From Candidatus Fermentibacterota bacterium (GTDB lineage: Bacteria > JAFGKV01): a stretch of 16,276 nt of DNA. Of this stretch, positions 3,265 through 15,125 are shown in pieces. Below the pieces are notes generated by a model. The model was not told where the DNA came from and did no database searches. It was given only the letters and a program-made list of their open reading frames with translations. Numbering within the stretch: position 1 is the stretch's first letter; every line of letters begins with the position of its first letter. Location: NCBI GenBank assembly GCA_030620115.1, contig JAUXFG010000087.1, positions 1-16,276 of the forward strand, read 5' to 3'. The position numbers were made by a program, and so were the translations under genes.

Positions 3265-3302
3265 CATTCTGAGGGAGCGAAGCGACCGAAGAATCTGGGT
3301 GG
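3265..3302. repeat. Dispersed 38-nt repeat, copy 2
   Basis: Direct copy of positions 30-67 with 37 of 38 bases identical. It is followed at once by GGGGGAAT units (3301-3316) of the 8-bp-period family, so the two repeat types are linked at both loci. Confidence 0.7.
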
Positions 3303-3330
3303 GGGAATGGGGGAATGGTGGGTTGGATGG

Positions 3331-4494: not shown

Positions 4495-4557
4495 CTTTGG
4501 AGTGCGGTAGCCATGCTACCGCTTTACCCGAGCAAGCATGGCTTGCGCACTCCAAAG
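4495..4557. repeat. Palindromic intergenic element A (TGGAGTGCG family)
   Basis: A 63-bp element bounded by perfect 12-bp inverted repeats CTTTGGAGTGCG (4495-4506) and CGCACTCCAAAG (4546-4557). Inside are two hairpins: GCGGTAGC-CAT-GCTACCGC (4504-4522) and GCAAGC-ATG-GCTTGC (4532-4546). Relatives at 7024-7105 and 14947-15000 keep the flanks but differ in stem sequence with pairing preserved. It resembles REP-like or small MITE-like non-autonomous elements. No transposase is nearby. Confidence 0.8.
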
Positions 4558-4733
4558 CGGCTATGTCAGTTCCGCGACGGGAGGACAGAAGACAGTGGAA
4601 ATAGGACAGCCCTCTCCTCCGAGACGACCGAAGGTCGCGTATCATCCCGCAATCGTATCCCAATCTCCTATCCCAATCTGAGTAATCTGTGGTTACGTTT
4701 TTGCGTGAGGCTCCTTCTCTTCCGACTTTATCC

Positions 4734-4750
4734 GCATCCGCCAGCTGGCG
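4734..4750. repeat. Partial copy of the CCGCCAGCTGGCGG palindromic repeat
   Basis: GCATCCGCCAGCTGGCG is shared with the centres of the longer repeats at 7269-7328 and 12831-12890. The flanks differ here. It lies just past the 3' end of the minus-strand VanZ-like gene. Confidence 0.6.
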
Positions 4751-4778
4751 CATGGGTAAATTCGCACCCACTAAGGGG

Positions 4779-5987
4779 CTAAAAGCGCCTATGCGTGGCA
4801 AAGATACTCGCGCAGAAGAGAGCAACAGAGAGACAGATCGTCAATGTCCAGAAACCTCGAGGCCCAATCCAGGCAATGAGGAGTTCCTGCACTGGGCTCC
4901 TGTAGGGCCATTCCTCCTTGGGAGGCATGCTCGCGTATCGCATTCTCTTCTCTTCCGGCCAATGAAGATCGTAGGTATTCATGTAATTCGTGTAAACCGT
5001 GCGCAACAAGCGCTCTTCTTCCAGTGCTTCCCTGAATGAACCATATCGAGGTGTCTCAAGGCCGTCACGGAGTTGTCGGTGACGCCATGCCTCATAGTTG
5101 TAGGCTGAAGGAGTAGGATGTCGGTAGGCTTTCCATTGCTCTATCCGTAAGGTGAGCCACTCGCGTGGGTTCGATGATTCGGTGCTCGAAAGAGGAGATG
5201 CCGACACCTCGCGCCAAGCCACTGCCTGCTTTGTTGCCCCTATGCTATCGAACTCGGCTCGTGTGAAGACGCTCTTGAATACGGTTCCGTCTTCAGAGGT
5301 GTGGAGATGTCCGAACCCATGGACAAAGGTCAGAAAAAAAGCTGTTCCAAGGACCAGTCCTCCAGCCACACGAAATATCACTGCCCAGGCTCTCCGATCG
5401 GGCCGGAGCTTGAGGAATCTGTCACCACCCATGACCAATCCAAGGAAAAGGCCCAGGGCGCCGGCGGAGATATTGATGCCGACGTCGCGAATCTCCCCAA
5501 CGCGATTCGGGATCACCCATTGGATGCCTTCATCCAGAAGACCAAGAGCAGCCACGTAGAAGAAGGCGAGGAAGAATATCCCCGCGTTGGGAAATGAAGG
5601 CGCCAATGCGTAGAGGGCGAGGATGGCTGCTAACCCATATTCAGCGTAATGCAAACGCTCCACGGCCAGATCCAGCCGGGAGATCAGAAAAGCATAGAGA
5701 GCTATTCCTAGTGCGAGAGCCGCAATTCGCCGAGGCGACCGACACTCCTTGCGTCGCAGGGTCCCCACCACGGCAATGATGCCGACAAGCCCCATGAGTA
5801 GAGATACGCACACAGAGAATCCACTGGCGCCTATGGCGCTTGTGAGCAAGTCCCTGAGGCGCCTGACGATGGAGAGCGTCGAGAGGATGAGAAGCGAATA
5901 AGCGCCTAGAATGATCCACCGTTTCAGTGGGCTTCCCGAGCAGTAGGGAGAACTGTTGTTGCTTTCCATTGGCATACGATACATCAT
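4779..5987 (-). CDS. VanZ-like family membrane protein with a C-terminal extension
   Basis: A 402-residue protein with about eight predicted membrane segments (roughly 22-40, 55-78, 87-103, 111-128, 135-152, 172-187, 203-224 and 378-396). The VanZ-like signature is visible in order: HYAEYG at 113-118, LLDEGIQ at 150-156, a basic RVGEIRDVGIN at 162-172 and a glycine-rich SAGALGLFLG segment. Residues about 225-375 form a polar, Tyr/Trp/Glu-rich domain placed between the last two membrane spans; I do not recognise it, and it is far longer than a plain VanZ domain. VanZ relatives are linked to glycopeptide or envelope phenotypes, but the molecular role is unclear. ATG 5987 follows GGAGCGGTAG; ATG 5984, 5972 and 5966 are alternatives. 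It is divergent from rplM and seems monocistronic. Confidence 0.85.
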   Translation of the reverse strand: MMYRMPMESNNSSPYCSGSPLKRWIILGAYSLLILSTLSIVRRLRDLLTSAIGASGFSVCVSLLMGLVGIIAVVGTLRRKECRSPRRIAALALGIALYAFLISRLDLAVERLHYAEYGLAAILALYALAPSFPNAGIFFLAFFYVAALGLLDEGIQWVIPNRVGEIRDVGINISAGALGLFLGLVMGGDRFLKLRPDRRAWAVIFRVAGGLVLGTAFFLTFVHGFGHLHTSEDGTVFKSVFTRAEFDSIGATKQAVAWREVSASPLSSTESSNPREWLTLRIEQWKAYRHPTPSAYNYEAWRHRQLRDGLETPRYGSFREALEEERLLRTVYTNYMNTYDLHWPEEKRMRYASMPPKEEWPYRSPVQELLIAWIGPRGFWTLTICLSVALFCASIFATHRRF

Positions 5988-6171
5988 CTACCGCTCCGGA
6001 TGGTCACGCCATCAGTATGAATGATCGGTATCAATGATACATGCGGAAGCTCGGGCTCGGGATGAACCGAGTCAAGGGATGCACATGGCGTGGAACGTGT
6101 GCTTGACGTGGTGTCCCCTGCACGGTTCTTTGCACGCGCTTCTTTGACCCAAGAGACGAGGTGAACATAAA
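5988..6171. promoter_or_regulatory. Divergent promoter region between the VanZ-like gene and rplM
   Basis: These 184 bases must hold promoters for both directions. A near-palindrome GTATCA-A-TGATAC lies at 6028-6040 and could be an operator or part of a minus-strand -10 region. A small hairpin CTCGG-GATGAA-CCGAG lies at 6056-6071. TTGACG at 6103-6108 is a possible plus-strand -35 box but has no convincing -10 partner. The rplM ribosome binding site GAGGTGA precedes ATG 6172. Confidence 0.45.
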
Positions 6172-6597
6172 ATGAAAACATACTCACCAAAGGCGGGAGA
6201 GATACAAGAGAAGTGGTGGGTTGTCGACGCTGACGGGCAAATCTTGGGCCGTATGGCCAGCAGAGTTGCCTCTGTTCTTCGTGGCAAACACCGAGCCGAA
6301 TATGCTCCTCATATGGATCTTGGTGATCACGTGATTGTCATCAATGCAAAGAAGATCTCGGTCACGGGGCGCAAGGCGATTCTGAAGGAATATGACCGGT
6401 ACAGCGGGTACCCTGGGGGTCGCCGCGTAGTCAAGTTCGGCACGATTTTCTCGAAACATCCAGAGAGGATCATCGAGCATGCGGTGAAAGGGATGCTGCC
6501 CCACAACCGGCTGGGGCGCGAGCTCTACAGAAAGCTGCGCGTGTATGCCGGGCCTGATCATCCCCATGAGGCCCAGAAGCCCGAGCCTCTCCCTTAA
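6172..6597 (+). CDS. rplM: 50S ribosomal protein L13
   Basis: A 141-residue large-subunit ribosomal protein of standard length that helps assemble the 50S subunit. Typical features are the WWVVDADGQILGRMAS start (15-30), GDHVIVINA (51-59), the YSGYPGG segment (77-83), and the conserved HAVKGMLPHNRLGR stretch (102-115). The ATG at 6172 follows GAGACGAGGTGA at good spacing. It is the first gene of the pair with rpsI, 20 bases upstream, an arrangement conserved in most bacteria. In E. coli L13 represses its own mRNA; the small hairpin in the leader is compatible with that but not proof. Confidence 0.98.
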   Translation: MKTYSPKAGEIQEKWWVVDADGQILGRMASRVASVLRGKHRAEYAPHMDLGDHVIVINAKKISVTGRKAILKEYDRYSGYPGGRRVVKFGTIFSKHPERIIEHAVKGMLPHNRLGRELYRKLRVYAGPDHPHEAQKPEPLP

Positions 6598-6617
6598 CAA
6601 CCAGTGGAGGATAATGA

Positions 6618-7010
6618 ATGAGTGAATCGGTGGCGTCCACCATAGGGCGGCGAAAGACCTCAGTGGCACGAGTGAGGATGATGCCCGGTACAGGGAAACT
6701 CGTCGTCAATAAGAGGTCGCTCACAGACTATTTCCCAAGGGAGACATTGGTCACGGCAATCCTCAAGCCCTTTCTGGTTTGCGAATGCGAGGGCAAGTTT
6801 GACGTGATCGCCAACGTTCGTGGGGGGGGGATGCGAGGGCAAGCAGGAGCGATCTGTCTCGGTATTGCTCGGGCATTGCTTGAAGTCGAGCCCTCACATA
6901 GACGGAATCTCAAGCGTCATGGCCTTCTTACCAGGGACCCGAGAATGGTCGAGCGTAAGAAATACGGAAGACCAGGCGCCCGGAAGCGCTTCCAGTTCTC
7001 CAAGCGATAG
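6618..7010 (+). CDS. rpsI: 30S ribosomal protein S9
   Basis: A 130-residue small-subunit protein whose C-terminal tail reaches the P-site tRNA anticodon stem-loop. The family pattern is plain: GRRKTSVARVRMMPGTGK near the N-terminus, NVRGGGMRGQAGAICLGIARAL in the middle (written here in part only), and the invariant basic ending RKRFQFSKR. The start at 6618 is chosen because it follows TGGAGG and the overlapping ATG at 6614 hits a stop after three codons. The codons for GGG contain a run of nine G (6822-6830), a possible slippage or sequencing-error site, though the frame is intact as given. Confidence 0.98.
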   Translation: MSESVASTIGRRKTSVARVRMMPGTGKLVVNKRSLTDYFPRETLVTAILKPFLVCECEGKFDVIANVRGGGMRGQAGAICLGIARALLEVEPSHRRNLKRHGLLTRDPRMVERKKYGRPGARKRFQFSKR

Positions 7011-7023
7011 GCTCCCATCGATG

Positions 7024-7105
7024 TGGAGTGCGGCGACATGTCGCCGCTTTGTTTTCCCACGACACGTCGCGGAATATGAAGGCGGCCTCATGCGACCGCA
7101 CTCCA
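7024..7105. repeat. Palindromic intergenic element B (TGGAGTGCG family)
   Basis: Bounded by perfect 10-bp inverted repeats TGGAGTGCGG (7024-7033) and CCGCACTCCA (7096-7105). The first hairpin is the perfect palindrome GCGGCGACATGTCGCCGC (7030-7047). The second arm is degenerate (GCGGCCTCATGCGACCGC, 7082-7099). It is related to elements at 4495 and 14947. It starts only 14 bases after the rpsI stop. Confidence 0.8.
7030..7055 (+). terminator. Possible Rho-independent terminator after rpsI
   Basis: The 18-nt GC-rich palindrome at 7030-7047 is followed by TTTGTTTT, the pattern of an intrinsic terminator, 20 bases past the rpsI stop. It is part of palindromic element B, so terminator function may be a by-product of a mobile repeat. 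The same stem-plus-TTTG pattern in element C lacks a long T run. Confidence 0.55.
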
Positions 7106-7207
7106 AGATTCCGTTATCTGTTGCTTGGCCTCGGTCATCCCGACTTCGCAAGTCCGCCGGCCGGGGCACTGCGGCCTCAAGATTGGCGCAAGAATAGGCT
7201 ACATCGA

Positions 7208-7231
7208 GAGTCCCGCGCACTGCGCGGGATT
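7208..7231. repeat. GAGTCCCGC hairpin repeat, copy 1
   Basis: A 24-nt unit with the hairpin CCCGCGC-ACT-GCGCGGG (7212-7228). An inverted copy lies at 15026-15049 with two differences, both in one stem arm. CAAGAAT and ATTCTTG lie on either side within 20 bases, which suggests it is the tip of a larger inverted repeat. Confidence 0.65.
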
Positions 7232-7268
7232 CGCATTCTTGGCGTACGGATTTGTCGCAGAATTGCTC

Positions 7269-7328
7269 TCCCCCATATAGGGGCATCCGCCAGCTGGCGG
7301 ACCGTGCCCACCGCAGACAAACCCTTAG
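7269..7328. repeat. CCGCCAGCTGGCGG palindromic repeat, copy 1
   Basis: A 45-nt core (7269-7313) with the perfect palindrome TCCGCCAGCTGGCGGA at its centre, flanked by GGGCA and TGCCC arms. It matches 12831-12875 with one clear mismatch (CATATAG against CATGTAG). Weaker similarity goes on to CCCTTAG here and CCCTAAG there. This copy is 180 bases before rpsB. Confidence 0.8.
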
Positions 7329-7392
7329 CCCGGACTTATGACCGGTTGTCGCAGCAGGAAGCTGGTGAGAAGTTCAGGCTTAGGATATCACA

Positions 7393-7504
7393 CACCCGTT
7401 TCTCTCACCGGGGTGCTCCATCGCCGTGGAGTAAAGGTGAATCATGCGATGAACGGGTGGAGGTTTAACCCCATCTAGGTCCAGCTTGATGGACCATGAG
7501 GAGG
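7393..7504 (+). promoter_or_regulatory. Structured rpsB leader (candidate S2 translational operator)
   Basis: Three nested stems can be drawn: CACCCGTT (7393-7400) with AACGGGTG (7452-7459), CACC (7406-7409) with GGTG (7436-7439), and CTCCA (7416-7420) with TGGAG (7427-7431) around TCGCCG. A separate hairpin GGTCCA-GCTTGA-TGGACC (7478-7495) ends 3 bases before the AGGAGG ribosome binding site (7499-7504). S2 is known to repress rpsB-tsf through its mRNA leader in Gammaproteobacteria; a like role here is inferred. Confidence 0.45.
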
Positions 7505-7510
7505 CACATC

Positions 7511-8647
7511 ATGGAAATTCCCGACATTGATCGGATGCTCGAAGCAGGTCTTCATTTCGGCCACCAGACGAGACGCTGGGATCCAAAGATGAAGGAATAC
7601 ATCTTTGGCGAGAGGAATGGTATCCATATCATTGATCTCCAGAAATCACGGCGTCTGCTGACTGAAGCCGTCCAGGCCGCGGAACGCGTCGCCGGTGAGG
7701 GCAAACGCGTGCTCTTTGTGGGCACGAAAAGACAGGCCAAAGATGTGATCAAGAGACAGGCGGAGCGTATCGGGATTCCTTATGTCACTGAGCGGTGGTT
7801 GGGCGGTACATTGACCAACTTCCAAACAATACGCCATAGCATGGCGCGACTAGAAGAGCTAGAGGGACTCGAACAGGATGGACCGACCCGGACCGTGACC
7901 AAGAAGGAGATGCTCAGGCTGCTCAAGGAGCGGGGAAAGCTTGAGAAAGTCCTCACGGGAGTTCGTCATATGACCGCGCTTCCCGGGCTTGTGTTCGTGG
8001 TGGATTGCAAGAAAGAACGGATCGCGGTGGCGGAAGCCAATAAGCTTGGGATTCCGGTCGTGGCCATTGTGGACACCAATATCGATCCCGAGAAGATCGA
8101 TTTTCCCATCCCAGGGAATGATGATGCCATGAAGAGCATCAAACTCATCACCAAGGTACTAGCAGGGGCTGTTGAGAAGGGGCTGGTGGCGCATCAAGAG
8201 CGTGTCGGCATCGAAAAGAAAGCCAAAGAGGAAAAGGCGGCGGAAGAAGCCAAGGCAAAGAGCGCCGCAAAGAAACCTGTGCGTCACGGCAAGGATTCTG
8301 AGAGACCTCCCATACGACGCCCGAGAGATATCAAGGAGAGAGCCCCCAAAGAGGCCAAGCCTGCGGGCAAAGAGGCCGGGGGTGATGTCAAGGAGGTGAA
8401 GGCCCCGGCAAAAGAAGCCAAGGGTGCGGTCAAGGACACGGCGAAAGCCAAGCCCGCGAGCAAGGAAGCTAAGGGTCCGGCAAAGGATACCCAGGCCCCG
8501 GCCAAGAAGGCCAAGAGTGATGCCAAGGGAACGATAAAGGCGCCAAAAGAACAGAAAGATGCGGCCAAAGGAAAACCTGCCACCCCCGAAGAGCAGAAGA
8601 GCCCGTCCGCGCCACAATCAATCAAACCGACCAAGAAGGAAGGCTAG
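7511..8647 (+). CDS. rpsB: 30S ribosomal protein S2 with a long Lys/Ala/Pro-rich C-terminal tail
   Basis: Residues 1-232 are a normal S2: EAGLHFGHQTRRWDPKM at 11-27, IHIIDLQKS at 38-46, FVGTKRQA at 69-76, ERWLGGTLTNF at 94-104, and VVAIVDTNIDP followed by DFPIPGNDDA at 183-206. S2 sits at the head-body junction of the 30S subunit and recruits S1. Residues 235-378 add about 144 residues made almost wholly of Lys, Ala, Glu, Pro and Gly, with many KEAK, PAKE and VKD repeats like histone H1 or other nucleic-acid-binding tails; most S2 proteins lack such a tail. ATG 7511 is chosen because AGGAGG lies 6 bases upstream; an in-frame ATG at 7496 overlaps that site. It is followed directly by tsf. Confidence 0.97.
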   Translation: MEIPDIDRMLEAGLHFGHQTRRWDPKMKEYIFGERNGIHIIDLQKSRRLLTEAVQAAERVAGEGKRVLFVGTKRQAKDVIKRQAERIGIPYVTERWLGGTLTNFQTIRHSMARLEELEGLEQDGPTRTVTKKEMLRLLKERGKLEKVLTGVRHMTALPGLVFVVDCKKERIAVAEANKLGIPVVAIVDTNIDPEKIDFPIPGNDDAMKSIKLITKVLAGAVEKGLVAHQERVGIEKKAKEEKAAEEAKAKSAAKKPVRHGKDSERPPIRRPRDIKERAPKEAKPAGKEAGGDVKEVKAPAKEAKGAVKDTAKAKPASKEAKGPAKDTQAPAKKAKSDAKGTIKAPKEQKDAAKGKPATPEEQKSPSAPQSIKPTKKEG

Positions 8648-8652
8648 TGAGG

Positions 8653-9249
8653 ATGAAGATAGAGGCGAAGCAGGTGAAGGAACTCCGCGACAGAACGGGC
8701 GCAGGGATGATGAATTGCAGGAAGGCTCTTCAGGAGTCCGAAGGAGACATCGAAAAGGCCATCGATTGCCTTCGGCGCCAAGGGATTGCCAAGGCGGCAA
8801 AACGGTCGGGGCGTGAAGCATCTGAGGGGATCGTCACTTCTTATATACATCTGGGTGGTAGGCTCGGCGTTATCGTGGAGGTCAACTGCGAGACCGATTT
8901 CGTCGCACGGACGGATGATTTCAAGAATCTCGCCCACGAAATCGCCATGCAGGTGGCTGCCACAGCACCGCTTGCGGTTATCAGAGAGGATCTTCCGGAG
9001 GAACTCGTACAGAGGGAACGGAATCTCTATTTGGCGCAGGTGGAAGAAAGCGGCAAGCCCGAAAAGATCTGGGACCGGATCGTCACCGGGAAGCTCGAGA
9101 AGTTCTACAAAGAGAACTGTCTCATGGAGCAGCCCTCCATACGCGATGGCGATCAAACCATCGAAGAAATGGTGAAGGTCTTGGCCGGGAAATTGGGCGA
9201 GAACATCATCATTAAGCAATTTGCACGGTTCCAGGTCGGGGAGGCATAA
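8653..9249 (+). CDS. tsf: Elongation factor Ts
   Basis: A 198-residue nucleotide-exchange factor for EF-Tu. The N-terminal UBA-like part (VKELRDRTGAGMMNCRKAL, 8-26) and the TDFVA motif (81-85) that contacts EF-Tu are intact. The length matches the short EF-Ts class (about 200 residues, as in Thermus) rather than the roughly 280-residue E. coli form. A GTG at 8647 overlaps the last base of the rpsB stop, but ATG 8653 has better spacing from GGAAGG and begins at the usual MKIEAKQVKELR homology. It is co-transcribed with rpsB. The gene that commonly follows, pyrH, is absent. Confidence 0.97.
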   Translation: MKIEAKQVKELRDRTGAGMMNCRKALQESEGDIEKAIDCLRRQGIAKAAKRSGREASEGIVTSYIHLGGRLGVIVEVNCETDFVARTDDFKNLAHEIAMQVAATAPLAVIREDLPEELVQRERNLYLAQVEESGKPEKIWDRIVTGKLEKFYKENCLMEQPSIRDGDQTIEEMVKVLAGKLGENIIIKQFARFQVGEA

Positions 9250-9254
9250 GATCT

Positions 9255-9368
9255 ATGGTAGCCGTGTTTTCGATCAGGGATGCAAGGGCGGCATGCAGCG
9301 CGTGCTTTTTGGAGAGGAAGGGGGAACGCTTGTGTGGCATGAGTCTGAGCTTCAGGAGTGAATTATGA
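9255..9368 (+). other. Possible 37-codon ORF between tsf and frr, overlapping the frr start
   Basis: An ATG at 9255 opens 37 codons ending in a TGA that overlaps the frr ATG as ATGA. The product (begins MVAVFSIRD) has three cysteines and matches nothing I know, including UMP kinase. No good ribosome binding site precedes it. It could be a coupled leader peptide, a scar left where pyrH often sits, or chance. Confidence 0.2.
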
Positions 9369-9922
9369 TTGAGCTGATTTTGGAAGAAGCCGAAGAGAAG
9401 ATGAGCAATGCGGTGGTGGCTCTGGAACGTGAGTTTATCAGGATCAGGACTGGGCGTGCATCCCCCGCATTGTTGGATAGTCTCAAAGTCGAATGCTATG
9501 GAAGCCTCATGCCGATCCGTCAAGTGGCCAACATCTCCGTTCCCGAACCACGACTCCTCGTTGTGCAACCCTGGGACCGAAGCGTGCTTTCGGCTGTGGA
9601 AAAAGCCATCAATAAGTCTGAACTTGGGCTGAATCCAATGAATGACGGCGTCGTCATTCGGCTGCCAATCCCCGCGTTGACCGAAGAACGAAGGAAAGAT
9701 CTTATCAAGCTGTCGCGCCGTGTGGCGGAGGAGGGGCGAGTTTCTATCAGGAATGCAAGGAGACAGGAGATCGAGGAGCTCAGGAAGTATCAGAAAGCGG
9801 GCGACATATCGGAAGACGATCTCCATCGGGGAATCGACAAGATCCAGGAACTCACCGATCGTTTTGTGGCCGATCTCGATAAGATCCTCAAGGAAAAGGA
9901 AAACGAGATCATGGAGGTGTAG
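9365..9922 (+). CDS. frr: Ribosome recycling factor
   Basis: A 185-residue factor that splits post-termination ribosomes together with EF-G. Full length and collinear with the family: a helical start, the FIRIRTGRASPALLD segment (24-38), VECYGSLMPIRQVANISVPEPR in part (42-63), and the late EERRKDLIKLSRR motif (107-119), followed by the long C-terminal helix. ATG 9365 is preceded by AGGAG at 7 bases. Its stop TAG shares a base with the uppS GTG start, so the two are probably coupled. Confidence 0.98.
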   Translation: MIELILEEAEEKMSNAVVALEREFIRIRTGRASPALLDSLKVECYGSLMPIRQVANISVPEPRLLVVQPWDRSVLSAVEKAINKSELGLNPMNDGVVIRLPIPALTEERRKDLIKLSRRVAEEGRVSIRNARRQEIEELRKYQKAGDISEDDLHRGIDKIQELTDRFVADLDKILKEKENEIMEV

Positions 9923-10671
9923 TGTCGGATTCCAGCGATCAAGAGGGGCTGGATCCTCGCAAGCTTTCCCGGCTTCCCCACCACGTTGCCGTAATCATGG
10001 ATGGGAATGGGCGGTGGGCCAAGGCGCGGGGTTTCCCGCGGATCAAGGGCCATAGTGCCGGCGTCGAAGCGATACGAGATACCGCAACTGCGTGTGCGGA
10101 ATGGGGAATTCAGTACCTCACTCTCTACTCGTTCTCCACCGAGAACTGGGCGCGCCCACGGGCGGAAGTCCAGTTCCTCATGAGACTGCTTCAACGCTAT
10201 CTTCGGGAAGAAATCAAGATTCTCTTCAAGAACAATATCCGGCTGAACGCCATCGGTTTTCTTGATGATCTCCCTCCTCGAGTTCAGAAGAACCTTGCCG
10301 ACGTCATTGCGCGAACCGAGAAAAACACGGGTCTTGTCCTTACCTTGGCGCTGAGCTATGGATCGCGGGCGGAGATCCTCGATGCAGTACGGGCACTCGC
10401 TGTCCGGATTGCGGCAGGTGAACTATCGCCGGACGAGATCGACGAAGCGTTATTCGCGTCCTCCCTTCATACGGCGGACATGCCGGATCCGGATCTGCTT
10501 ATCCGAACCAGTGGAGAGATGAGGATATCAAACTTCTTGCTCTGGCAAGTGGCGTACACAGAGTTATGGGTAACCCCCATCCTCTGGCCGGATTTTCGAC
10601 GAGGAGAGCTCTACCGCGCCTTCGAGGAATTCGCTCAAAGGGATCGGCGTTACGGCAAGGTAAAGGCCTAA
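9922..10671 (+). CDS. uppS: Isoprenyl transferase (undecaprenyl diphosphate synthase type)
   Basis: A 249-residue cis-prenyltransferase that adds isopentenyl units to farnesyl diphosphate to make the C55 carrier lipid for peptidoglycan and other envelope polymers. Conserved parts: HVAVIMDGNGRWA (21-33) with catalytic Asp27, Arg40 and His44, YSFSTENW (69-76), and RTSGEMRISNFLLWQ (195-209) leading to Glu214, which binds Mg2+. The C-terminal RRYGK replaces the common RRFG. The GTG start overlaps the frr stop by one base, with GGAGG 4 bases before it. It feeds on products of the MEP pathway to which dxr, two genes downstream, belongs. Confidence 0.97.
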   Translation: MSDSSDQEGLDPRKLSRLPHHVAVIMDGNGRWAKARGFPRIKGHSAGVEAIRDTATACAEWGIQYLTLYSFSTENWARPRAEVQFLMRLLQRYLREEIKILFKNNIRLNAIGFLDDLPPRVQKNLADVIARTEKNTGLVLTLALSYGSRAEILDAVRALAVRIAAGELSPDEIDEALFASSLHTADMPDPDLLIRTSGEMRISNFLLWQVAYTELWVTPILWPDFRRGELYRAFEEFAQRDRRYGKVKA

Positions 10672-10687
10672 CGTGACATTTGGAACG

Positions 10688-10744
10688 ATGAAAGCCCCAC
10701 TCCTTCCCATCACCCCATCACCCCATTACCCCATCACCCCATGA
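10688..10744 (+). other. Possible 18-codon leader ORF running into cdsA
   Basis: ATG 10688 opens 18 codons rich in Pro and Thr (MKAPLLPITPSPHYPITP) that end in a TGA overlapping the cdsA ATG. It is read through the 8-bp tandem repeat. The ribosome binding site (TTGGAACG) is weak. Loss of one 8-bp unit would join this frame to cdsA. Confidence 0.2.
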
Positions 10745-10764
10745 TTCCATCATTCCATTCTTCG
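10709..10764. repeat. 8-bp-period tandem repeat spanning the cdsA start
   Basis: Seven contiguous 8-bp units: ATCACCCC twice, ATTACCCC, ATCACCCC, ATGATTCC, ATCATTCC, ATTCTTCG. The cdsA ATG at 10741 is the first three bases of the fifth unit. The unit family is the reverse complement of the GGAATGGG units at 90-137. Confidence 0.85.
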
Positions 10765-11622
10765 AGTACCCCAAATGCGCAGCAGAGCGGAGCCAAGCTC
10801 TCGAACCTCGCTCTTCGTACACTTGTGGCGGCTGTGGGCATTCCGCTCTACCTATTCCTCATCTATCTGGGGGGCATCTGGTTTTTCCTCGCGAACCTCG
10901 TCATCGTGTTGGCCGCCACTCATGAGTTCCTTCTCTTGAGCCGCCCGCGGGCAGACATAACCTCTTGGATTGCCATGGCCGGCGCGGCTGCATGTCTCTT
11001 CTTCATGAGCTCCGGGCGTGTGGGGCAAGCTGCGTCTATGGCCGTGGCGCCATTTCTGCTGATTCTTTTGTTGCATATTGTCATCGGGAGATGCGAGGGC
11101 ACGATGCTCTATGCCTCGCAGGCCGCTGCGGCAGTCTTGTACATTGCGTGGTTTTTTGGGCATCTGTTCTTGCTCAGGAATCCCACAGGATCCCTCCAGG
11201 CGTGGGACACGCCCGGTTGGCAGCTTGTCTTACTGCCGCTTGGAATCACTTGGATTACTGATACTGCCGCCTACGCGGTGGGTCGAGCGGTAGGGAAGCA
11301 TCCCTTTGCCCCTGTGGTCAGCCCCAAGAAGACGTGGGAAGGGGCCATGGGAGGGATCCTCGGAGGCGTGGGAGCAGGTGCGCTTGCCGCTGCGGTGGGC
11401 ATTGTCTCCCTGAAGGCGGGGATTGTCGTTGGATTCTTTGTGGGGACAGTCGGTCAGCTGGGCGATCTGGGCGAATCACTGCTCAAGCGGGAGGCCGGCG
11501 TAAAGGACAGCTCTTCCCTCATTCCAGGTCATGGAGGTGTTCTCGACCGTTTTGATAGCCTTCTCCTGAATATACCGGGAACGTACTACCTGCTTCTTCT
11601 TCTTGCGCCGGGAGTACACTAG
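10741..11622 (+). CDS. cdsA: Phosphatidate cytidylyltransferase (CDP-diglyceride synthase)
   Basis: A 293-residue inner-membrane enzyme that makes CDP-diacylglycerol from CTP and phosphatidic acid, the branch point of phospholipid synthesis. Eight or so hydrophobic segments are visible. The signature is complete: TDTAAYAVGR (173-182), SPKKTWEG (194-201), GDLGES (241-246), KREAGVKDSSSLIPGHGG (249-266) and DRFDS (269-273). The start is doubtful: ATG 10741 lies inside an 8-bp tandem repeat, lacks a ribosome binding site, and gives about 20 Ser/Pro/Asn/Gln-rich residues before the first conserved stretch NLALRTL. In-frame alternatives downstream (such as GTG 10825) would cut into the first membrane helix. 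The stop is 3 bases before dxr. Confidence 0.94.
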   Translation: MIPSFHSSSTPNAQQSGAKLSNLALRTLVAAVGIPLYLFLIYLGGIWFFLANLVIVLAATHEFLLLSRPRADITSWIAMAGAAACLFFMSSGRVGQAASMAVAPFLLILLLHIVIGRCEGTMLYASQAAAAVLYIAWFFGHLFLLRNPTGSLQAWDTPGWQLVLLPLGITWITDTAAYAVGRAVGKHPFAPVVSPKKTWEGAMGGILGGVGAGALAAAVGIVSLKAGIVVGFFVGTVGQLGDLGESLLKREAGVKDSSSLIPGHGGVLDRFDSLLLNIPGTYYLLLLLAPGVH

Positions 11623-11625
11623 CCC

Positions 11626-12783
11626 ATGAAGCATATCGCAATTCTAGGGAGTACCGGATCCATTGGCCGTGCCGCCTTGGACGTGGTGTCCCATCTTGGA
11701 GAGGAGTTCAAGGTCAACGCCCTTGCCGCGTGGTCGAATGGTGATCTCTTGGCTATGCAAGTCGAGCAGTATCGTCCGGAGCTGGTTGGATTCGGCTCCC
11801 ATGAGGATGCGCGGGTCGCCGCGGCGTGCCGGCGTGTAGGTGCTCGGCTTGTGCTCGGCCGGGAGGGACTCGAGGAAGTCGCGGCTTGCCAAGGTGTAGA
11901 CACAGTTCTTAATGCCGTGGTCGGCGCCGCGGGGCTCTTGCCGACCCTCGTGGCCCTGAGATCCGGCAAGACGGTGGCGTTGGCAAATAAGGAGAGTCTC
12001 GTTATTGGAGGGGAGCTGGTGATCAGAGAGACGGGGGCTGATCTGGAACGTCTCATCCCTGTAGACTCTGAACACGCATCACTCCATATCGGGCTACGTG
12101 GGAAGAAGAGCAGAGACATCAGATCCCTCTGGCTTACGGCTTCCGGCGGGGCGTTGAGGGATTACCAGGGGCCATTGGCCGACGTGACCCCTGCCCAAGC
12201 TCTGGCCCATCCCACATGGAACATGGGGAGGAAGATTACCATCGATTCGGCCACCATGATGAACAAGGGGCTCGAGATTGTTGAAGCCCACTACCTGTTC
12301 AATATGCCTTTGGACAAGATTCACTGCGTGATGCACGAGCAGAGCATCGTGCATTGTTTAGTGGAACTGAACGACGGATCGGTCCTGGCACACATGGCCT
12401 GGCCCGATATGAGGGGGCCGATCCAATACGCGTTGACCTATCCCGACCTGGTACCCTCTCCGTTACCCCCCCTGCTTCCCAAAGGGCTGAGCAGACTTGA
12501 CTTCAAGCCCGTAGATCATTTTCGATTTCCCTGTCTGCGGTTGGTGCGGGATGCCGCCGAGGCAGGCGGCATCGCCCTGGCTGCCATGAATGCGGCCAAT
12601 GAGGTTGCCGTTGCGTCCTTCCTTGCGAAGGAAATATCCTTTGTAGACATCCCCAAGGTTATCGAGTCGGTGTTGGATAGACGAGAAACAATATGCTCTC
12701 CCAAGCTCGAGGATATCATGAATGCTGATCGAGCCGCACGAGAGAATGCGCGAGAGGTCATCAACCATTTGCGTTGTAGATAA
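11626..12783 (+). CDS. dxr: 1-deoxy-D-xylulose 5-phosphate reductoisomerase
   Basis: A 385-residue cytosolic enzyme for the first committed step of the MEP isoprenoid pathway, turning DXP into 2-C-methyl-D-erythritol 4-phosphate with NADPH. Seen in order: NADPH loop GSTGSIG (8-14), LANKESLV (119-126), metal-binding PVDSEH (145-150, Asp147 and Glu149), TASGGALRD (171-179), AHPTWNMGRKITIDSATMMN (194-213), GLEIVEA (215-221, Glu217), and VMHEQSIVH (235-243). Length and motif order are standard, with nothing missing. It begins 3 bases after cdsA; the purine run GGGAG is rather far from the ATG, so coupling to cdsA translation is likely. Confidence 0.98.
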   Translation: MKHIAILGSTGSIGRAALDVVSHLGEEFKVNALAAWSNGDLLAMQVEQYRPELVGFGSHEDARVAAACRRVGARLVLGREGLEEVAACQGVDTVLNAVVGAAGLLPTLVALRSGKTVALANKESLVIGGELVIRETGADLERLIPVDSEHASLHIGLRGKKSRDIRSLWLTASGGALRDYQGPLADVTPAQALAHPTWNMGRKITIDSATMMNKGLEIVEAHYLFNMPLDKIHCVMHEQSIVHCLVELNDGSVLAHMAWPDMRGPIQYALTYPDLVPSPLPPLLPKGLSRLDFKPVDHFRFPCLRLVRDAAEAGGIALAAMNAANEVAVASFLAKEISFVDIPKVIESVLDRRETICSPKLEDIMNADRAARENAREVINHLRCR

Positions 12784-12802
12784 GGGTTCGCGCAAGAATA
12801 AA

Positions 12803-12821
12803 TTCGCAGTTATGGCGCACA
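12803..12821 (+). repeat. 19-nt dispersed repeat before rseP
   Basis: TTCGCAGTTATGGCGCACA, exact inverted counterpart of 2192-2210. A looser relative (GTGGCACATATGCTATTTGG) is near 16092. It directly precedes the 45-bp palindromic repeat. Confidence 0.7.
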
Positions 12822-12830
12822 TATTTGGTC

Positions 12831-12890
12831 TCCCCCATGTAGGGGCATCCGCCAGCTGGCGGACCGTGCCCACCGGAGGCGAGCCCTAAG
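12831..12890. repeat. CCGCCAGCTGGCGG palindromic repeat, copy 2, abutting the rseP ribosome binding site
   Basis: The 45-nt core (12831-12875) matches 7269-7313 with one clear mismatch; similarity extends to CCCTAAG, the first bases of the rseP ribosome binding site AAGGAGGAG. The palindrome TCCGCCAGCTGGCGGA lies at 12847-12862. It separates dxr from rseP and places a strong hairpin 30-50 bases before the start codon. Confidence 0.8.
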
Positions 12891-12901
12891 GAGGAGCCTG
12901 A

Positions 12902-14302
12902 ATGGAAACACTACTAGCCGGCCTGATCGTTCTTGGAATCCTTGTGATTGCGCACGAATTGGGGCACTTGGTGGCAGGGCTGCGGCTTGGTGTCACCGTA
13001 CTGAAGTTCAGCATCGGGTTCGGTCCCAAGGTGGTTGGTTTCACCTGGAACGGAATCGAATGGGTCATCAGCGCCATCCCGTTTGGGGGATTCGTGAAGT
13101 TTGCCGGGGATGAACCCGGAGGGGAAGAGGAGGAAGAGGAATCGTCTCCTGATCCCGGCGATTTCTCAACGCAGCCGTGGTGGGTGAAGACCGTGGTAGC
13201 GGTCGCCGGACCCGGGATGAATGTCGTATTGGCATTTGTGCTGTTTTATGTGGTCTCACTGATTGGATTGCGGATACCCGACCCCGACCTTATCGTTGGT
13301 ATGGTGGAGGCTCACTCTCCCGGGGACAGTATAGGCTTGCTCTCCGGGGACAGGATTGTTGAGCTGGGTGGCCGCGAGGTGGATACCTGGTTTGATCTCA
13401 TGAAAGTCCTTGCTTCCTCTGAGAAGAACCAGGATGTCGGCTCTCTTGCTCTGGTGGTATCGCGTGCCTCAACCATGGATACGCTGCTTGTGGACGCCAA
13501 GGGTGGTTTCCTCGAGGGAATAGGTCTATCGGTGTCCCCGGTGGTGGGTGAAGTAAGCATCGGTCTCCCTGCGTTCGAAGCGGGCCTCCAGGAAGGCGAC
13601 AGCATAGTGGTTGCCGGGGGCCAATCGATTCAGACCTATGAAGAGTTCCGGAAGATCATCCAAGGCAAAGCCGACGAGGATCTGGAGCTGTGTTTTGTCA
13701 GGGAGGGGAGGTTGCTCACCACTACTATTCGGCCGATGAACGGCGAGAGCGTAGGGGTAGGGCCGGGTGGACTCATCGGCATCATGAGCCGCCAGGGAAA
13801 ACAGCGGGCTATCAAGTTTGGTCCCTTGGAGGCATTGGTTCACTCTGCGGAGATGACCTTTGGCATAGCAGGCAACATCTATTCCGGGCTCTATCGCATA
13901 GTGAAGAATCCGCGTGCGATGCGACGTCAATTGGGTGGACCCATCGCCATTGCACAGTTGTCGGCCAAGGAGGCCAAGAAAGGCCTGGACAGCATCATTA
14001 GTTTCGTGGCGATCATCTCGGTGATGTTGGCTGTGGTGAACCTGCTTCCCATACCGATTCTGGACGGCGGCATGGTACTCTTCTCGCTCATCGAGGGTGT
14101 ACGTCAGAAGCCGCTTGGTTTGAAGTCGCAGCTTGTTCTGCAGAGGATAGGTTACGCCTTTCTTGTGACCCTGATGGCGTTCTCCTTGGCGAATGATGTG
14201 GAGAGAATGTGGAAGCGTCGCAAGGCAATAGAATCCCCCGTTGAGGTGATGAAAAAGGAGCAGCCGCAGGAGACCGGCATAGGGTCTGGCAAAGCAGAGT
14301 AA
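12902..14302 (+). CDS. rseP: Site-2-type intramembrane zinc metalloprotease (M50, RseP family)
   Basis: A 466-residue polytopic membrane protease expected to cut transmembrane anti-sigma factors or signal peptide remnants. The zinc site HELGH is at 18-22 in the first membrane helix, GPGMN at 103-107, and the second active-site motif NLLPIPILDGG at 380-390. Two PDZ regions lie at about 125-205 and 213-283, as in E. coli RseP, though the first is divergent. An acidic insert with seven Glu in a row (about 74-80) follows the conserved FGGFVKFAGDEP stretch on the cytosolic side. ATG 12902 follows AAGGAGGAG. The C-terminal tail after 435 is polar. It is followed after 6 bases by rsmD. Confidence 0.96.
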   Translation: METLLAGLIVLGILVIAHELGHLVAGLRLGVTVLKFSIGFGPKVVGFTWNGIEWVISAIPFGGFVKFAGDEPGGEEEEEESSPDPGDFSTQPWWVKTVVAVAGPGMNVVLAFVLFYVVSLIGLRIPDPDLIVGMVEAHSPGDSIGLLSGDRIVELGGREVDTWFDLMKVLASSEKNQDVGSLALVVSRASTMDTLLVDAKGGFLEGIGLSVSPVVGEVSIGLPAFEAGLQEGDSIVVAGGQSIQTYEEFRKIIQGKADEDLELCFVREGRLLTTTIRPMNGESVGVGPGGLIGIMSRQGKQRAIKFGPLEALVHSAEMTFGIAGNIYSGLYRIVKNPRAMRRQLGGPIAIAQLSAKEAKKGLDSIISFVAIISVMLAVVNLLPIPILDGGMVLFSLIEGVRQKPLGLKSQLVLQRIGYAFLVTLMAFSLANDVERMWKRRKAIESPVEVMKKEQPQETGIGSGKAE

Positions 14303-14308
14303 CGAGGA

Positions 14309-14869
14309 GTGGCAGCCCCCTCGCGAGCGAGGCTCGTTGCTGGTGAAGCCAAGGGACGAGTCCTGGCGGTGCCGCCAGGCGTGCGACCGAGTTCTGCCAT
14401 GACGAGGAGGACAATGCTCGATCCTCTCCGTGAGCACATCCGCGATGCAGAGGTGCTCGATCTATTCGCCGGTGCGGGGGTGCTTTCCGCGGAGATCCTT
14501 TCTCGGGGCGCGCGCAACCTTGTGGCGGTGGAGCGATCGCCGAGAGCCGCGCAGGTTTGGAAGAAGAACATGGAGCTGTTGAGCTTCAGCGCTCGGGCAC
14601 ATATTCTTATCATGCCTGTACAGAGAGCGCTCAAGAGATTAGTGAAGGGCTCATGGGAGTTCACGCTTTTGGTCGCGGATCCGCCATATGCAATGCCGAA
14701 CTTGTTGGCTTTCTGGTCGGAAGCTCCGTTCTTTGAGCTCTTGTCTCCCGGGGGAATTCTGGTCATTGAACAGGCGCGGCGAGCCGGGGATCCGGCGCCG
14801 TCGAAATTGACTCCGCTGTGGAAACGCGAGATCGGCGACACCATGATCTATGCCTTTCAATCGGTGTAG
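14309..14869 (+). CDS. rsmD: 16S rRNA (guanine(966)-N(2))-methyltransferase RsmD
   Basis: A 186-residue SAM-dependent methyltransferase acting on G966 of 16S rRNA. The order is typical: RLVAGEAKGR (8-17), RPSSAMTR (26-33), motif I VLDLFAGAGVLSAE (49-62), the acidic ribose-binding Glu75, and catalytic DPPY (124-127). The GTG at 14309 is the only usable start between the in-frame rseP stop and the conserved region, yet its purine-rich GAGGA touches the start codon with no spacer, so initiation probably depends on ribosomes ending on rseP 6 bases before. RsmD and CoaD are neighbours in many genomes, which supports the call. Confidence 0.95.
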   Translation: MAAPSRARLVAGEAKGRVLAVPPGVRPSSAMTRRTMLDPLREHIRDAEVLDLFAGAGVLSAEILSRGARNLVAVERSPRAAQVWKKNMELLSFSARAHILIMPVQRALKRLVKGSWEFTLLVADPPYAMPNLLAFWSEAPFFELLSPGGILVIEQARRAGDPAPSKLTPLWKREIGDTMIYAFQSV

Positions 14870-14889
14870 GGGCACGGCATGCCGTGCCC
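14870..14889. repeat. Perfect 20-nt palindrome after rsmD
   Basis: GGGCACGGCATGCCGTGCCC follows the rsmD stop with no gap. It has no T-run, so intrinsic termination is doubtful. It opens a row of palindromes that runs to about 15050. Confidence 0.8.
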
Positions 14890-14946
14890 TCCGGCCTGCC
14901 TCGGCGAAGCCTTGGCGTAGACGGGAGGCGTAGCCCTAATGCAAGC

Positions 14947-15000
14947 TTTGGAGTGCGCAAGCCAAGCTTGCGCTTTGTTCCGCGGGAGCCATGCTCCCGC
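14947..15000. repeat. Palindromic intergenic element C (TGGAGTGCG family)
   Basis: TTTGGAGTGCG (14947-14957) leads into GCGCAAGC-CAA-GCTTGCGC (14955-14973), then TTTGTT, then a second hairpin GCGGGAGC-CAT-GCTCCCGC (14982-15000). The closing CGCACTCC arm found in A and B is not seen. The first hairpin keeps the flank and the CGCTTTG tail of element B but has a different stem. Confidence 0.75.
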
Positions 15001-15025
15001 GCTCATAGCAGACTGTTGGATGAGC

Positions 15026-15049
15026 AATCCCGCGCAGTATGCGGGACTC
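15026..15049. repeat. GAGTCCCGC hairpin repeat, copy 2 (inverted)
   Basis: Reverse-complement copy of 7208-7231 with 22 of 24 bases the same. Here one stem arm carries two changes that shorten the perfect pairing to CCCGC/GCGGG. Confidence 0.65.
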
Positions 15050-15125
15050 GGGAAAAGCGGTAGCCCCGCGCTCTAGATGGGATGAAGATCAAGAAGTCAT
15101 GGCTGATGGAAAACAGAGGACGGAA

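Follow-up and report, generated by a model that had tools for sequence, protein, structure and literature searches.

GGAG-footed REP/REPIN-type palindromes with covarying stems and a probable RAYT partner in a Candidatus Fermentibacterota genome

Three palindromic elements, A, B and C, are found in the window, i.e., the whole stretch of 16,276 nucleotides from Candidatus Fermentibacterota bacterium analysed here. They share their borders and differ in their stems, which raises the question of what is conserved in such a family and what has distributed it. A preliminary description, made from the letters alone, likened them to REP/BIME elements moved by RAYT transposases and named an active diversification of the stems as a second option. 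The first of these readings agrees with what we found, namely genome-wide copies, covarying stems and, in the same genome, a RAYT gene with these termini on either side. With a probability of roughly 0.9, we consider A, B and C to be non-autonomous REP/REPIN elements, whose spread was most likely brought about in trans by a RAYT of this genome.

The pattern TGGAGTGCG-N{6,30}-CGCTTT matches the window three times, while each of 200 dinucleotide shuffles yields no match. The cores at 4498-4525 (A), 7024-7050 (B) and 14949-14976 (C) lie where a common left TGGAGTGCG and a common CGCTTT tail had been described. It had also been claimed that the stems differ and yet pair completely with their partner arms, and the first hairpins of all three elements are indeed fully paired; the stem partners in the window are GCGGTAGC/GCTACCGC, GCGGCGAC/GTCGCCGC, GCGCAAGC/GCTTGCGC, and (C)GCGGGAGC/GCTCCCGC(G). 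The assertion that most loops are alike goes too far: the loop AGCCATGCT occurs in only three of the six main hairpins (the first of A, the second of A in reverse, and the second of C), that of the first hairpin of C is AGCCAAGCT, and those of B differ from AGCCATGCT. All three elements are located between annotated reading frames.

Element A (4495..4557, plus strand), bordered by speE-like and VanZ-like genes, is a 63-bp inverted pair CTTTGGAGTGCG...CGCACTCCAAAG and represents an internally deleted REPIN of about 141 bp. Its first hairpin (4504..4522, plus strand), GCGGTAGC-CAT-GCTACCGC, stands on the foot GGAGT at 4499-4503 and is followed by CTTT; the second (4532..4546, minus strand) reads GCAAGC-CAT-GCTTGC and has lost the foot-closing arm CGC. 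Element B (7024..7105, plus strand), an 82-bp REPIN between rpsI and rpsB, is composed of three hairpins: the first at 7030..7047 (plus strand, GCGGCGAC-AT-GTCGCCGC), a middle one at 7057..7072 (plus strand, CCACGAC..GTCGCGG) with one mismatch in the window copy and perfect pairing in other copies, and the second main hairpin at 7082..7099 (minus strand, GCGGTCGCATGAGGCCGC). Element C (14947..15073, plus strand), a truncated composite REPIN of about 141 bp between rsmD and coaD, does not end at 15000 as initially described, but matches the composite over 14947-15064, its truncated last hairpin reaching to about 15073. Hairpin 1 of C (14955..14973, plus strand) is GCGCAAGC-CAA-GCTTGCGC and hairpin 2 (14981..15001, plus strand) is (C)GCGGGAGC-CAT-GCTCCCGC(G); hairpin 3 (15028..15047, plus strand) is a TCCCGCGCAGTATGCGGGA module at a place where other copies have a CAAGC hairpin, and the last hairpin (15054..15073, minus strand) has a CTACCGCTTT end and is missing the outer GGAGTGCG.

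Other repeats share the intergenic stretches of the window. A second palindrome, GCATCCGCCAGCTGGCGGACCGTGCCCACC-like, recurs at 4736-4752, 7286-7316, and 12846-12872, and runs of GGGGGAATGGGGGAATG and CCCCATCACCCCAT-like short repeats are present at 95-135, 3296-3330, and 10701-10760.

A genome-wide search with the core pattern, as the preliminary description had proposed, revealed 44 matches in the 4.1-Mb genome and none for the reversed control pattern, so the family is not restricted to the three copies of the window; TGGAGTGCG alone occurs 101 times, versus 29 for its control. Two subfamilies can be distinguished. The 82-bp unit to which B belongs has three hairpins and carries TGGAGTGCG inverted at its two ends, while A and C derive from a unit of about 141 bp with four hairpins. 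Identity to B amounts to 78/82 for a copy on contig C47 (L012), 76/82 for the copies on C155 and C211, and 69/82 for the REPIN beside the RAYT gene on C184. The longer unit is present in full length on C247 (98%). C agrees with the left 121 positions of that copy at 87%; A is the same unit without its middle, 4495-4547 corresponding to element positions 89-141. The stem words of this genome are few and discrete (GGTAGC, CAAGC, GGGAGC, and a longer CCCCGCGTACTGCGCGGGG) and are found at varying composite positions. Because the words change position and can be replaced by the longer CCCCGCGTACTGCGCGGGG, the composite of about 141 bp reads as a mosaic, as known from BIMEs. The family comprises short palindromes, each preceded on the 5' side by a fixed oligonucleotide foot, in many dispersed copies (44 cores) and in paired units of 82 and about 141 bp, traits that are all characteristic of REP/REPIN elements. 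Outside several B copies (L005, L012, L024, L099), similar sequence extends further, with CAGAGGACAGCCATA before and AGATTCYGTC after the element. In view of these alike flanks, some B copies may stem from larger duplications or lie inside a larger repeat.

Do the stems of these copies covary? Since the search pattern itself fixes GCG and CGC, these pairs are no evidence for covariation, and the comparison concerns the inner four stem positions. Among 71 distinct elements from 25 genomes, these positions form a mean of 2.96 contiguous Watson-Crick pairs, compared to 0.89 when partners are swapped (at most 1.30 in 2000 trials). The stem words are specific to each genome, and yet they are paired. 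An alignment of ten B-type copies, four of them from one Lentisphaerae genome, has 95.7% of its cells paired and four pairs changed on both sides; none of 500 shuffles reaches the paired fraction or the covariation score, while the number of doubly changed pairs (four) is reached by 91 of the 500. Sliding the structure along the alignment lowers the paired share to 21-70%. The 71 elements and the B-type alignment agree with the claim that the hairpin itself is kept, through paired changes.

Template switching in hairpins is able to alter both arms at once, and an active process of this kind (hairpin replacement or template switching) would rewrite both stem arms in one step, which would suit the discrete stem words shared by different composite positions in this genome. 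Single unmatched or G-U changes do exist, however, such as GGTTGCC/GCTACC at L015 and one-sided changes in the B-type alignment, and BIME-like mosaic shuffling of hairpins suffices to explain the pattern. The same pattern is seen in published REP families, where fixed feet with alternative complementary stems are the norm, so that a stem diversifier is not needed and the combination of changeable stems and fixed borders, which had been called less usual, is ordinary (PMC3733652). We regard an active rewriting of the stems as improbable.

A REP family is expected to come with a cognate RAYT, and a search for such a gene between the same termini had been suggested as a check. In 6 of 13 carrier genomes, RAYT-like genes are adjoined by the elements, mostly on both sides. 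A profile (A1) of eight RAYT-like genes, chosen as flanked by GGAG elements in carrier genomes, gives one strong match in the genome of the window (G000:C184:18297-18830, E 2.5e-82); the Pfam Y1 model misses this gene, which was found only with the clade profile. B-type REPINs lie on both sides of it, one of 82 bp and intact, the other slightly decayed, so that this genome contains a REPtron, i.e., a cognate RAYT flanked by the same elements; the flanking REPINs are of B type only, not of A/C type. The frame is uninterrupted and ends in ...LSIPDDF, the TGA being its own terminal stop. Just upstream of the conserved WPHAP region no ATG is present, and the open frame extends upstream across the second REPIN, inside or before which translation may start.

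The predicted structure of the C184 RAYT (pLDDT 85.6, pTM 0.84) has 4ER8, the TnpA-REP of E. coli in complex with a REP hairpin, as its best PDB match (Foldseek E 3e-9; Z 16.9 over 154 residues, the next entry reaching Z 11.2). Phmmer against PDB sequences returned nothing relevant. Throughout the clade, the HUH motif (NHYH) and the tyrosine of YVHxN do not vary; the protein combines HUH, a single Tyr motif, and a predicted Y1 fold, as RAYT/TnpA-REP proteins do. No relatives of the C184 RAYT were found in phage and plasmid records at E 1e-5.

Looking beyond this genome, the core pattern is present in 28 of 50 genomes reached via RAYT loci, with up to 52 copies, and reversed controls give 0-4 per genome. 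Multi-copy carriers include Verrucomicrobia, Kiritimatiellae, Lentisphaerae, and one Neomarinimicrobiota genome. B-type REPINs beside a RAYT of the clade in a Lentisphaerae genome (L270) align with B of the window at 57-59 of 82 columns. In the sister genus, two genomes contain 6 and 1 pattern matches; of the six in G001, five form hairpins whose stems are different, e.g., CAACCTTGGTTG and CACGCTTGCGTG. Viral contigs show 44 pattern matches.

Because the eight seed genes had been picked as flanked, the coupling of elements and RAYTs was assessed in an unbiased sample of 115 genomes, drawn evenly from the phylum of carrier G049 and including G049. By the A1 profile alone, 13 of them carry the RAYT clade. 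At least two elements are present in all 13, versus 6 of the 102 genomes without a clade RAYT (Fisher p 6e-13); when five elements are required, the proportions are 11/13 and 3/102 (p 4e-11), and the picture is the same after dropping G049. Of 16 non-seed RAYTs identified by protein homology in the even sample, 14 lie no more than 220 nt from GGAGTGCG elements, most of them with elements on both sides. Exceptions occur in both directions: clade RAYTs without nearby elements are L357 and L361 in the even sample and L274 in the earlier set, and elements but no clade RAYT at E 1e-30 were found in G061 (35 copies), G064 (9), and G150 (6).

This distribution also bears on the question whether the hairpins serve the neighbouring genes as RNA or transcription signals, be it as terminators, mRNA stabilisers or attenuators, with covariation reflecting RNA selection at each site. 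All three elements are intergenic and fold strongly as RNA (z -7.9 for A, -5.8 and -3.4 for the others), and REPs elsewhere have acquired such roles (PMC6006769, PMC3733652). Against such a function, the elements flank RAYT genes in many genomes and follow RAYT presence, the foot bases are fixed although they lie outside the stem, and an Rfam search matched no family. Furthermore, the sister genus keeps the gene pairs without the element: in two genomes rpsI-rpsB and rsmD-coaD are still adjacent, and GGAGTGC is absent from the fetched stretches of both pairs. In G001 the gaps measure about 170 nt (rpsI-rpsB) and 20 nt (rsmD-coaD) by tblastn ends, versus about 490 and 340 nt in the window. The proposed comparison of empty and filled sites in relatives thus yielded gene pairs without GGAGTGC, but no base-exact empty site; at this resolution, the sites fit a gain of B and C in this lineage. 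Selection on RNA signals as the source of the family is highly improbable in our view.

Further Y1 and RAYT-like genes of the same genome were considered as movers. A 179-aa RAYT (L033:1210-1439, G000:C200) has its own 32-bp inverted repeats GTAGGTCGGGTTAGCG... of the classical GTAG type and was rejected. L031 and L032 (G000:C187 and C118) are Y1 proteins of about 320 aa, both carrying a DnaA C-terminal-like domain, and are encoded between inverted repeats including GGGGTCAG; with these inverted ends instead (compare the TIRYT type, PMC3733652) they were discarded too, as was L034, only a fragment. The 159-aa RAYT at L035:1125-2330 (G000:C160) is flanked by arrays of TGGAGGG-stem-CTCCGT-stem' hairpins, in which the loop CTCC is complementary to the foot GGAG; TGGAGGG-footed relatives of this protein form a supported group in Verrucomicrobia and other phyla. 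In Verrucomicrobiia, L134 (L134:1279-1800), a RAYT near a TGGAGTGCG REPIN, was rejected as partner, as it belongs to the TGGAGGG group and carries a TGGAGGG element; such a hairpin is also found in frame within this RAYT gene, between the HUH and Tyr motifs.

L035, rather than the C184 RAYT, might be the mover of A, B and C: it and its arrays are GGAG-footed as well, and both kinds of elements occur near the one TGGAGGG-group RAYT at L134. Nevertheless, L035 carries TGGAGGG elements of its own on its flanks and belongs to another supported group, and the genome-wide coupling is with the C184 clade. A role of L035 or another RAYT of the genome is accordingly very unlikely.

With the C184 RAYT as the preferred partner, the following mechanism is conceivable. 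The unit consists of opposed hairpins, the outer ones on the fixed foot 5'-(C/T)TTT-GGAG-T-GCG...CGC-TTT. Each hairpin would fold in single-stranded DNA, and foot and hairpin would be bound by the RAYT (TnpA-REP, an HUH/Y1 single-strand nuclease). GGAG would replace GTAG as the guide, a nearby CT would be nicked, either before the foot or in the CGCTTT tail, and the nicked strand would be joined elsewhere. A requirement for the foot, the GCG/CGC clamp, and a paired stem, but for no particular stem sequence, would leave the borders fixed and let the stems change in matched pairs. Known TnpA-REP enzymes bind REPs in single-stranded form, need both the foot and the hairpin, and cleave at a CT next to the latter; for one of these systems, it was shown that the foot selects, by cross-pairing, the dinucleotide to be cleaved (PMC8266576). 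As GGAG retains the last two bases AG, cleavage at CT would still be expected. A pyrimidine-rich (C/T)TTT precedes the foot and CTTT follows the hairpin, the latter fixed by the search pattern. We infer that GGAG serves as guide, that CT is cleaved, and that the C184 RAYT moves the elements; the A/C subfamily would be served by the same enzyme.

How does this system relate to known ones? Like REPs, REPINs and BIMEs, it has a short hairpin on a fixed 5' foot, occurs in many copies (those of the window intergenic), includes inverted pairs and mosaics, splits into subfamilies whose complementary stems are alternatives to one another, and comes with a cognate RAYT. The difference is the foot. Known REPs carry GTAG/GTGG or CGTC tags (PMC3733652, PMC3116915), whereas here GGAG is followed by TGCG, with a matching CGCTTT tail. 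Window elements and REPtrons alike have GGAG as their foot; neither the GT[AG]G foot of the GTAG superfamily nor the CGTC superfamily tag is found on the elements. In the broad sense, this is a REP/REPIN system; by its foot, it lies outside the GTAG and CGTC superfamilies.

The enzymes have relatives among described proteins as well. TnpA-REP subclass 2.8 of Quentin et al. (2018) comprises proteins with long GT[AG]G REPs in Cyanobacteria, and related sequences are said to exist outside this phylum (PMC6006769). Compared by description, our clade resembles it in NHYH, W followed by H/Y, a YIHxNP-like Tyr motif, and a length of about 200 aa; in detail, the subclass has NHYH, W[YH], and YIHYNP, while the clade has NHYH, a YVHxN-like motif, and varied residues after W. 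It differs in being associated with GGAG elements in Verrucomicrobia-related and other phyla, and GT[AG]G flanks were not encountered. The E. coli TnpA-REP (4ER8; PMC8266576) shares the fold (Z 16.9), HUH and Tyr, but only 13-18% identity, and its guide-contact region WQ....D/EH..R corresponds to W-x-Q/N-Y/F-W/R-D/E-S/T/R...T here. Class 3 of Quentin et al., with CnGA-footed hairpins (PMC6006769), likewise has RAYT-like genes flanked by multi-copy non-GTAG hairpins, but another foot, and a Tyr motif YV..EQ rather than YVHxN[PA]. What is new here is the foot, together with the enzyme clade and the range of phyla; the kind of element is known. The word GGAG was found in none of the RAYT papers searched, supplements and subscription journals being outside this search, and an earlier description is possible.

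The relation of feet and enzymes was studied in a tree of 89 RAYT-like proteins, each labelled according to hairpin feet up to 700 nt away; for three with bulged stems the label was assigned manually, and the labels of the distant RAYTs L248, L268, and L285 possibly reflect chance hairpins. One branch (SH-aLRT 99.6) unites the C184 RAYT with the eight seeds and L274. TGGAGGG-footed RAYTs lie in a second supported group, which has 26 rows, not all of them with a called foot, and is itself nested among GTAG RAYTs. Outside both groups lies a distant RAYT (L286:623-1731, G050:C51) with GGAGTGCG-CCCGTCCCCGGGCG elements on both sides, possibly a further origin of the GGAG foot.

E. coli H101 is among the residues implicated in guide contact (PMC6006769). 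At this column, His is present in 35 of 38 GTAG/GTGG-labelled proteins versus 1 of 26 GGAG-labelled ones, most of which have T, R or S instead. A test for independent changes of tag and H101 comprises only two to four pairs, too few for significance, and we take the contrast between GTAG and GGAG RAYTs as a lead, not as a result. There is an even chance that GGAG REPs are a further tag superfamily and that GGAG-reading RAYTs arose at least twice (the TGGAGTGCG clade and the TGGAGGG group), both without His at the H101 position.

Published REP searches are keyed to GT[AG]G or CGTC feet and would miss GGAG elements; what is gained here is a multi-phylum family with its enzyme identified. Its natural sets of feet, stems and RAYTs make the choice of foot, stem and cleavage site by RAYTs directly testable. 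If GGAG-reading RAYTs did arise repeatedly with a change at the H101 position, a natural guide-recognition code of RAYTs might be readable from genomes.
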